A DNA stretch of 64,000 bases from NCBI GenBank assembly GCA_028284155.1, contig JANQSF010000058.1:1-64000 (forward strand), given 5' to 3'. Positions 61,351 to 64,000 of the stretch are shown here, piece by piece. This DNA comes from Phycisphaeraceae bacterium (GTDB lineage Bacteria; Planctomycetota; Phycisphaerae; Phycisphaerales; Phycisphaeraceae). Under the pieces are notes generated by a model that did not search any database, was not told the origin of the DNA, and worked only from the letters and a program-made list of their open reading frames with translations. A program made the translations under genes and the position numbers. Position 1 is the stretch's first letter. Every line of letters begins with the position of its first letter.

Positions 61351-62643
61351 ATGAAACTCCAATCCCCCAAAGGCACGCGCGACTTCTACCCGAAGGAGAT
61401 GGCCGATCACAACTACGTGATCGACGCCTGGCGGCGGGTCTCGATCCGCAACGGGTACGAGCAGATCGACGGGCCGATCTTCGAGACGCTCGACCTGTAC
61501 AAGATCAAGTCGGGTGAGGGGATCGTCAGTGAGCTGTTCAGCTTCCGGCGCACGGGCGGCGACACCGACTACGCGATCCGCCCCGAGTTCACGCCGACGC
61601 TGGCCCGCATGGTCGCCGCTAAGGCCAACGCGTTGCCCAAGCCGATCAAGTGGTTCTGCACACCCAACTTCTGCCGGGCGGAGCGGCCGCAACGCGGTCG
61701 GCTGCGCGAGTTCTGGCAGTGGAACGTCGACATCCTCGGCCTCGACTCACCGTTGGCCGACGCGGAGGTCATCTTCACGGCCGTCGACCTGTTCGCGGAG
61801 TTGGGCCTGACGCACGAGCAGGTGCGGGTCAAGATCAGCCACCGCGACACGACCCGCCACATCCTGCTCAAGCTCGGCGTTTCGGACGACCGAATGCTCG
61901 CCGCGTTCAACCTGCTCGACCGCCGCGAGAAGATGGACGACGACGCGTTCGTCAAGGCCGCGGCCGACCTCGGCCTGGAAGAGCACAACGTCAAGCGGTT
62001 CGACGAGGTCTGTCGGATGACGTACTCGATCGGCGGGTTGGCCGCGCTGCGCGCGTCGGTCGGCGCCGGCGTCGATCTTTCTGACCTCGAAGGTTTGGAC
62101 GAGCAACTCAAGGCGTTCGGCATCGCCGACTGGTGCGAGTACGACCTGGGCATCGTGCGCGGGTTGGCCTACTACACGGGCACGGTGTTCGAGATCAAGG
62201 AGGTCAGCGGCGTCGAACGCGCGATCGCCGGCGGCGGGCGGTACGACAAGCTGATCGAGCTGTTCGACGGCCCGCCGACGCCGGCCGTCGGGTTCGGCAT
62301 GGGCGACGTCGTATTGACTAATGTATTATTAGATAAGGGCCTGATGCCCGAAGACGCGTCGCCGGCGCCGGACGTGTTTCTCATCGCCGCCAGTGACGCG
62401 GGCGCGGCGCAACTGCCGGCCGTCGCGTCGCAACTGCGCCGTGCGGGCCTGCATGCGCGGTTCAGCTACAAAGCGACACGCAACATCGGCAAGCTGTTGC
62501 GTGATGCGACAACGTCGCGGGCACGCTACACCGTCATTGTGGACGATCGCATTTCAGAGAACATCGTCGCGATGAAAGACATGGCCAGCGGCGAGCAGAG
62601 CGATGTCGCGCTCGACCAGATAGCAGACCAGATCAATCAGTGA
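61351..62643 (+). CDS. hisS: histidyl-tRNA synthetase
   Basis: 430 residues. Class II synthetase charging tRNA-His. Motifs: QSPKGTRDFYPKEMADHNYV, motif 2 FCRAERPQRGRLREFWQWNV, the HisRS-specific GLAYYTGTVFEI, and motif 3 GGGRYDKLIELF plus AVGFGMGDV, followed by an anticodon-binding domain (DVFLIAASDAGA). Length is typical. There is no T-box or His leader upstream. Its 3' end overlaps the convergent membrane-protein gene by 11 nt. Confidence 0.96.
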   Translation: MKLQSPKGTRDFYPKEMADHNYVIDAWRRVSIRNGYEQIDGPIFETLDLYKIKSGEGIVSELFSFRRTGGDTDYAIRPEFTPTLARMVAAKANALPKPIKWFCTPNFCRAERPQRGRLREFWQWNVDILGLDSPLADAEVIFTAVDLFAELGLTHEQVRVKISHRDTTRHILLKLGVSDDRMLAAFNLLDRREKMDDDAFVKAAADLGLEEHNVKRFDEVCRMTYSIGGLAALRASVGAGVDLSDLEGLDEQLKAFGIADWCEYDLGIVRGLAYYTGTVFEIKEVSGVERAIAGGGRYDKLIELFDGPPTPAVGFGMGDVVLTNVLLDKGLMPEDASPAPDVFLIAASDAGAAQLPAVASQLRRAGLHARFSYKATRNIGKLLRDATTSRARYTVIVDDRISENIVAMKDMASGEQSDVALDQIADQINQ

Positions 62644-63175: not shown

Positions 63176-63685
63176 ATGGCTCAACGGCGATTCCATTACG
63201 ACGTCGCGTTCGAACGCTACCTGCGTGAGCGGACATTGCCCTACATCGCCGTCGACGAGGCCAAGCGGTCCCTGCAGAGCACCGACCCGCCGTCGTCGCT
63301 GAAGAACTTCGACTTCGTCGTCTACTCGCCGTCGAAGACCAACCTGCTGATCGACGTGAAGGGGCGGAAGCACTCGGGCAAGAGCAACCGCAGCCTCGAC
63401 AATTGGGTGACCGACGGCGACGTGACGTGCATGGGCCAATGGGAGGGCATCTTCGGCGAGGGGTTCACGGCCGCGTTCGTCTTTTTGTATTGGTGCCAGG
63501 CCCAGCCGCCCGACGCCCTGTTCCAGGAGGTGTTCGAGTCGAGCGACCGGTGGTACGCCGTGCTGGCGATCACGCTGGACGATTACAAGGCCCACATGCG
63601 GCAGCGCAGCCCCAAGTGGGGCACGGTGAGCATGCCGGCCGACGCGTTCAACCGGTTGGCCGTGCCGCTGCGTGAGTTGCTCTGA
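63176..63685 (+). CDS. HYExAFE family protein, PD-(D/E)xK nuclease-like fold
   Basis: 169 residues. It opens FHYDVAFERYLRERTLPYIA, the HYExAFE hallmark (here HYDVAFE), a family I know only from planctomycetes. The core NFDFVVYSPSKTNLLIDVKG then RK looks like the D...DxK strands of restriction-endonuclease-like folds, followed by a WYxxL-type strand RWYAVLAITLDDYKAHM. Function unknown; DNA binding or cleavage is only an inference from fold. The ATG at 63176 follows TACACT by 12 nt. The ileS attenuator region begins 2 nt after its stop with a 19-nt repeat. Confidence 0.85.
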   Translation: MAQRRFHYDVAFERYLRERTLPYIAVDEAKRSLQSTDPPSSLKNFDFVVYSPSKTNLLIDVKGRKHSGKSNRSLDNWVTDGDVTCMGQWEGIFGEGFTAAFVFLYWCQAQPPDALFQEVFESSDRWYAVLAITLDDYKAHMRQRSPKWGTVSMPADAFNRLAVPLRELL

Positions 63686-63686
63686 C

Positions 63687-63705
63687 GCCGCTTGCGGCTT
63701 AGCGC
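63687..63705 (+). repeat. 19-nt GCCGCTTGCGGCTTAGCGC repeat
   Basis: An exact copy starting 2 nt after the HYExAFE stop codon and ending 12 nt before the -35 of the ileS leader. Confidence 0.85.
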
Positions 63706-63716
63706 TCTCGCTCTGC

Positions 63717-63744
63717 TTGCCTGCGCTGTCTGCCGCTCTATACT
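63717..63744 (+). promoter_or_regulatory. promoter TTGCCT-N16-TATACT of the ileS leader
   Basis: TTGCCT (63717-63722), a 16-bp spacer and TATACT (63739-63744). The start would fall near 63751, about 20 nt before the leader ORF. It fits a sigma70-like promoter. Confidence 0.6.
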
Positions 63745-63771
63745 TGCCCCGATAACCGATTGACGACCGAC

Positions 63772-63831
63772 ATGCACACCCCCGCCCGCATCATCGCCGA
63801 GATTACCATTACCCGCCCCGCGCGGCGGTAG
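63772..63831 (+). CDS. candidate ileS leader peptide, 19 residues with four Ile codons
   Basis: MHTPARIIAEITITRPARR encoded by ATC ATC (63790-63795), ATT (63802-63804) and ATT (63808-63810). Four of 19 codons are Ile, upstream of isoleucyl-tRNA synthetase. The stop TAG (63829-63831) lies inside GGTAGGG (63827-63833), which can pair (7 bp, one G-U) with CCCTGCC, the 5' arm of the following terminator. A ribosome stalled at Ile codons would leave GGTAGGG free to form an antiterminator; a ribosome reaching the stop would cover it. No strong SD is visible. Confidence 0.65.
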   Translation: MHTPARIIAEITITRPARR

Positions 63832-63870
63832 GGTCGGCGATGCTCACGCACCAACGCACGACGCCCTGCC
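63827..63870 (+). promoter_or_regulatory. putative antiterminator of the ileS attenuator
   Basis: GGTAGGG (63827-63833), overlapping the leader stop codon, is complementary to CCCTGCC (63864-63870), the 5' arm of the terminator. The two structures are mutually exclusive, as in classic leader-peptide attenuation. Inference from base pairing only. Confidence 0.55.
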
Positions 63871-63889
63871 CCGCGAGGCAGGGTTTTTT
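63864..63889 (+). terminator. intrinsic terminator of the ileS leader (attenuator)
   Basis: CCCTGCC (63864-63870), loop CCGCGA, GGCAGGG (63877-63883), then TTTTTT (63884-63889). A 7-bp all-paired GC-rich stem plus six T is the clearest rho-independent terminator in the window. It lies 48 nt before the ileS ATG and after the leader ORF, so full termination would silence ileS. Confidence 0.85.
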
Positions 63890-63937
63890 GTTGACACGAC
63901 ACTCCGACGCCACGTTGCCAACCTGAACGGTCCACCC

Positions 63938-64000
63938 ATGACCCAGCAAACCGAAAAACGCACTTACAAGAAGACGCTGAACCTGCCCAAGACGTCGTTC
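63938..64000 (+). CDS. ileS: isoleucyl-tRNA synthetase, first 21 codons
   Basis: The frame begins ATG 63938 and is cut by the window edge. MTQQTEKRTYKKTLNLPKTS followed by F matches the N-terminus of IleRS (KxTLNLPKTxFPMRA pattern). The enzyme charges tRNA-Ile. The gene is preceded by promoter, leader peptide and terminator, so expression is probably controlled by Ile-tRNA supply. Only the first residues are visible, so domain content is inferred from this match. Confidence 0.85.
   Translation, partial: MTQQTEKRTYKKTLNLPKTSF

Follow-up and report, generated by a model that had tools for sequence, protein, structure and literature searches.

How does a planctomycete adjust the expression of ileS, the gene for isoleucyl-tRNA synthetase, to the charging of tRNA-Ile? 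The question is raised by the end of a 64,000-nucleotide stretch of DNA from a Phycisphaeraceae bacterium (hereafter the window), where a short Ile-rich ORF and a terminator-like stem-loop precede the start of ileS. An original prediction, made from the letters of this DNA, had read the arrangement as Ile-codon attenuation of ileS. Our results support this reading through conservation, the in-frame placement of Ile codons and the pairings, and we consider it very probable that a ribosome-mediated transcription attenuator senses charged tRNA-Ile here and controls ileS, and that a like element controls cimA. The anatomy of the element, its conservation, the in-frame Ile codons and their position, the mutually exclusive pairings, the specificity for certain genes and the lack of T-boxes above the cut-off were all observed directly. 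From these we infer that the leader is translated, that the ribosome stalls on it, and that read-through into the gene follows when charged tRNA-Ile is scarce.

The components named in the original prediction are all in place (Table 1). The promoter-like pair is the sole match between positions 62600 and 64000, where shuffling leads one to expect 0.1. The four Ile codons of the leader are codons 7, 8, 11 and 13, two of them adjacent, and 16 nt lie between the last one and GGTAGGG, the segment that overlaps the stop codon. GGTAGGG is complementary to CCCTGCC, the 5' arm of the terminator, over 7 bp with one G-U pair. The downstream gene matches TIGR00392 with an E-value of 9.3e-244 (811 bits against a cut-off of 621). 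When the intergenic region was shuffled 20,000 times with its dinucleotides preserved, 15 of the shuffles contained an ORF that had four or more Ile codons within a length of 25 codons or less; the decisive evidence, for which we take the element before ileS as real, is its conservation in relatives. In the surrounding DNA, a GC-rich segment at 63679-63725, around GCCGCTTGCGGCTTAGCGC and 3' of the upstream gene, has at least 11 other copies in the genome and represents a dispersed repeat. Another synthetase gene, hisS (TIGR00442), lies at 61351-62643, 1.3 kb ahead of ileS, and no His-rich leader was evident by inspection of the 150 bases 5' of it.

Table 1. Coordinates of the features before ileS in the window, and loci of the related leaders
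Feature	Position or loci	Strand	Description
Promoter, sigma-70-like	63717..63744	+	TTGCCT 63717-63722, 16 nt, TATACT 63739-63744
Putative leader peptide ORF	63772..63831	+	19 codons, MHTPARIIAEITITRPARR, then TAG (63829-63831, within GGTAGGG); Ile-rich ORF in 57 homologous loci
Predicted stall region	63790..63810	+	Ile codons ATC 63790, ATC 63793, ATT 63802, ATT 63808
Region 1	63792..63807	+	CATCGCCGA 63792-63800 and TTACC 63803-63807; from RNAfold and locus-specific complementarity
Region 2	63827..63842	+	GGTAGGG 63827-63833 (antiterminator 5' strand) and TCGGCGATG 63834-63842
Region 3	63864..63870	+	CCCTGCC; partner is region 2 (antiterminator) or region 4 (terminator)
Region 4	63877..63889	+	GGCAGGG 63877-63883 and T6 63884-63889; 3' part of the intrinsic terminator
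Intrinsic terminator	63863-63889	+	Arms CCCTGCC/GGCAGGG, then T6
ileS, isoleucyl-tRNA synthetase	63938..64000	+	968 aa, continuing past the window end (G000:C27:63938-66844); TIGR00392
cimA copy of the attenuator	G000:C59:2458-2528 (L109, L112)	-	In the window's own genome; leader MQPNGTIIIAIISNPPLR, then stop
ileS leaders of family f5	L031, L033, L034		MKPLTAAISIRISITKPH, then stop, and similar; TGA stop in TGAGGCGG
Type II leaders	L185-L199		15 genomes of families f2, f4 and f5; before ileS
Leu leaders of leuA	L200-L205, L207, L208, L210; L220; L240		Stop in antiterminator strand, terminator before leuA

We located ileS in 41 related genomes and 66 contigs and read the DNA 5' of the gene. 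About ten genomes of the same family, with 57-67% IleS identity, share the design and have leaders of unrelated letters and like content, such as MNTVTIQIADIIMITPDIAR, MPPNRTIFRIIITITITSTHSR and MTHAQPTIIAIIISDPDQR, each followed by a stop. In nearly all of these relatives the stop lies inside GGTAGGG, followed by (A/G)CCCTGCC...GG(C/T)GGGG-Tn. The original prediction had expected related Phycisphaerae to keep the Ile codons, the stop position and the pairing, and had named a lack of conservation of the short ORF or of its Ile codons as the outcome that would speak against it. The leaders of the relatives exclude that outcome. Across the 57 leaders, 273 Ile codons stand in frame versus 14 and 13 in the alternative frames, Ile makes up 27% of the residues, and the stop codon is TAG in 54, nearly always inside GGTAGGG. 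Judged by its reading frame and composition, the leader ORF is probably coding and is Ile-directed.

The Ile codons are also confined mostly to positions -6 to -14 relative to the stop, and the last of them ends at least 13 nt ahead of region 2 in 44 of 52 leaders. Beyond its A site, a ribosome shields some dozen nucleotides of the downstream mRNA. With this footprint and this codon spacing, a ribosome stalled at the Ile codons would leave region 2 free, and one standing at the stop codon would cover it. Codon choice is equally distinctive, with an ATT:ATC ratio of 166:96 in the leaders versus 40:196 in ten ileS genes (p 9e-27). What is found at these loci is, in short, a small ORF with clustered cognate codons, whose translation would provide the sensor.

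Downstream of the leader, an intrinsic terminator stands between it and the gene, and the antiterminator helix (regions 2 and 3) and the terminator helix (regions 3 and 4) are mutually exclusive. The terminator helix reaches 98.5% pairing across 60 aligned elements; three of its eight pairs have changed on both sides, and none of 500 shuffles attained its covariation score. These statistics lean towards the 3:4 pairing, the alignment having been fitted to that helix. The antiterminator helix is 93% paired in the same 60 elements, versus 29-56% for slid partners. This segment hardly varies, so that double-sided changes in the helix are scarce (4 cells, 2 pairs); the 2:3 logic is kept with altered letters in genome G022 and in family f5. 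When the RNA was folded without region 4, region 2 paired with region 3 over at least five bases in 52 of 57 cases. The copy in the window is one of the five exceptions: only four bases of its region 2 pair with region 3 before region 4, because a competing hairpin forms.

A further pairing, absent from the original prediction, joins the leader itself to region 2. In the window, RNAfold pairs CATCGCCGA, which lies over an Ile codon, with TCGGCGATG in a 9-bp helix, extended by TTACC with GGTAG (63827-63831). Over all loci the duplex between leader and region 2 is locus-specific, with a mean of -16.0 versus -14.2 kcal/mol for permuted partners, a value reached in none of 2000 permutations; for the ileS subset alone, the figure is 22 of 2000. 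A 1:2 helix that, in the absence of a ribosome, would sequester the antiterminator strand is thus part of the element.

Taken together, the features suggest the following course of events. Transcription would begin just ahead of the leader ORF. When Ile-tRNA is ample, the ribosome would pass the Ile codons and reach the TAG inside GGUAGGG; this strand would then be masked by the ribosome at the stop or, after its release, held by the 1:2 helix. With GGUAGGG masked, CCCUGCC would pair with GGCAGGG and transcription would end at U6 before ileS. When Ile-tRNA is scarce, the ribosome would stall at the Ile codons, some 13 or more nucleotides ahead of GGUAGGG, and would disrupt region 1, freeing GGUAGGG. 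Before GGCAGGG has been transcribed, the free strand would engage CCCUGCC, resulting in read-through into ileS.

A TATACT/TATAAT-like -10 box lies 6-10 nt 5' of the leader ATG in 44 of the 57 loci. From the position of the box, most leaders are probably leaderless, with the transcript starting at the ATG or a few nucleotides from it. The ileS leader of the window deviates in this respect, as its -10 box lies 27 nt before the ATG. It lacks both a clear Shine-Dalgarno sequence and the spacing that makes most of its relatives look leaderless.

The element is tied to two genes. Among 397 genomes of the class, a strict pattern of it matched five times, upstream of ileS in two cases and of a second gene in three, and the reversed control pattern gave no match; a chance origin was rejected on these grounds. 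We identified the second gene as the citramalate synthase gene cimA (TIGR00977, 549 bits against a cut-off of 450). Citramalate synthase catalyses the first step in making isoleucine from pyruvate, so that either target makes or uses the amino acid that would be sensed. The genome of the window carries the element before both genes, and its cimA copy had not been part of the original prediction. With a covariance model trained on eight examples and run over the 51 genomes of the window's family, the element was found in 40, before both genes in 16, before ileS only in seven and before cimA only in 17; the model detected no element in the other 11. Among its strongest matches (E at most 5e-6), 51 of 54 stand before ileS or cimA. 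In family f6 of the same order, the element precedes cimA in four genomes and ileS in one, and cimA was not found in the 26 genomes of the order that were tested outside families f1 and f6. Three matches from a search of the phylum (G459, G641 and G029:C45) have no Ile leader and were discarded.

Could the stem-loop simply terminate the upstream HYExAFE gene (63176-63685), the short ORF being incidental? That gene runs in the same direction and stops 180 nt ahead, and a terminator-like match by itself is at chance level in this region (1 found versus 1.0 expected). However, a promoter sits between the HYExAFE gene and the leader, tens of genomes keep the Ile-rich ORF, its stop position and the antiterminator strand independently of the upstream gene, and the element recurs before the unrelated gene cimA, always with Ile codons. 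We rejected this explanation on the strength of the conserved leader and antiterminator and their recurrence before cimA, and regard it as extremely unlikely. The leader might instead act on the translation of ileS, by freeing or hiding its start, or act through Rho, in either case without intrinsic termination. The type II leaders and the f5 elements that stand before ileS in sister families (Table 1) have no clear U-tract, and another output may exist there. Elements of type I, on the contrary, have a GC-rich helix followed by a U-tract in nearly all cases, with covariation in the helix, and anything from about 14 to 210 nt separates the terminator from the start of ileS or cimA; for them we find such an output very unlikely.

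Control by a T-box or a ligand-binding riboswitch deserves mention because ileS is a common T-box target, being regulated in this way in Firmicutes and Actinobacteria (PMC1262725). Gene and signal, the charging of tRNA-Ile, would be shared with the element described here; the T-box RNA differs in binding the tRNA directly and in having no translated leader. In the window, no Rfam family reached its gathering score, and in the leader neither the T-box nor the Rfam amino-acid leader families (Phe, Thr, Leu, His, Trp and others) appeared at E-values up to 10. Likewise, RF00230 (T-box) gave no match above the cut-off in the 51 genomes of the family, with Bacillus subtilis and other controls positive, and the leader, at about 140 nt, is shorter than the 219-position T-box model. 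These covariance-model results led us to reject the T-box and the other Rfam families, to which we now assign virtually no probability. As a separate observation, a below-cut-off T-box match occurs at G419:C155:80-351 (L236; 75 bits, E 1.8e-16), in a genome that is 66% complete, and may be contamination. Lastly, the element might sense the general speed of translation or the modification state of tRNA-Ile instead of its charging. Any slowing at Ile codons would stall the ribosome, and AUU is favoured over AUC in the leaders. Against this, both targets serve the synthesis or charging of isoleucine, and leuA in relatives has a Leu leader instead, which argues for an amino-acid-specific signal and makes this option decidedly unlikely. 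The reading that we prefer remains attenuation by charged tRNA-Ile.

The mechanism itself is classical. In Escherichia coli, pheST is preceded by a Phe-rich leader and by alternative terminator and antiterminator helices, and in the ilvGMEDA and thr leaders of enteric bacteria Ile codons sense Ile-tRNA. The ileS element resembles pheST in placing a synthetase gene under a leader rich in the cognate codon. It differs from it in amino acid, genes and sequence, in the stop inside the antiterminator strand, and in that most leaders are probably leaderless. In the ilvGMEDA, ilvBN and thr leaders, Ile is mixed with Val, Leu or Thr and the targets are biosynthesis operons, whereas here Ile stands alone, the targets are ileS and cimA, and no Rfam model matches. 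The Corynebacterium ilvB motif contains a uORF with branched-chain codons, a terminator (P2) and a complementary antiterminator in P1, but its codons are mixed Ile/Leu/Val, its target is ilvB and it belongs to one actinobacterial genus (PMC11109978, PMC10272879). Streptomyces trpS and leuS have leader attenuators (PMC1262725); ribosome-mediated attenuation of synthetase genes is thus also known outside Proteobacteria, with other amino acids and in another phylum. In the searchable literature, we found nothing relevant on citramalate synthase with a leader peptide or attenuation, and no report of leader-peptide attenuation in Planctomycetota, although a listing in a 2010 comparative survey is possible. 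Within that literature, the RNA family, its two isoleucine targets, the phylum and the probably leaderless design appear to be new.

If our reading is correct, classical leader-peptide attenuation reaches Planctomycetota and its targets gain ileS and cimA, so that one RNA family would tie the gene of a tRNA synthetase and that of the enzyme at the head of the citramalate route to a single signal. The work also yields about 60 annotations of missed small ORFs and a search model. T-boxes and leader peptides replacing each other at one gene would constitute a natural experiment, and the placement rule for Ile codons, together with the AUU preference, may serve as quantitative input when the sensitivity of attenuators is modelled, as in PMC1183508.

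Leaders of parallel design precede leuA. In nine of the 11 related genomes checked, leuA has a Leu-rich leader, mostly ending in GLLLLxxAG before the stop, with the stop in GGATAGGG or similar, followed by a terminator of the CCCTGTCC...GGACAGGG-Tn type; the window's own leuA (L206) has no Leu leader. A leuA with a Leu leader was also found in another family of the phylum (G625). A generic TAGGG...CCCT...GGG-U pattern recovered, in 10 genomes, only Ile and Leu leaders besides three unrelated or chance sites. No leaders for other amino acids appeared by this TAG-stop pattern in the 10 genomes, a search that other designs would escape.

At ileS, the sister families show other variants. A type II pattern, ATTANNNNGCCCCNNTGAGGG, searched without reference to ileS, gave 15 matches among 151 genomes, all of them 145-290 nt before ileS, and its control pattern gave none in the same 151 genomes. 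The type II peptides end in R-I-x-x-P-(R/L) or nearly so, and their TGA stop lies inside a GCCCC..TGAGGGG hairpin; we did not assign them to the same mechanism, as this hairpin has no U-tract. Family f5 expresses the type I logic in a third form: its TGAGGCGG is complementary to CCGCCTC, which lies in a GC-rich hairpin further downstream that has no clear U-tract. We see about an even chance that Planctomycetota harbour a general, undescribed family of branched-chain leader attenuators (Ile for ileS and cimA, Leu for leuA), mostly leaderless and with the stop within the antiterminator strand, and that the type II leaders of the sister families do the same job before ileS through another output. 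Finally, two other Phycisphaerales contigs (L052 and L064) carry short ORFs before ileS, MHIMTRRMPSIAGIMIICPPDGGRVAIDC and MASWQQVGIIMTCPPDGGRAMIEC, each followed by a stop and sharing an ending that contains CPPDGGR, which are possibly another type of ileS leader.
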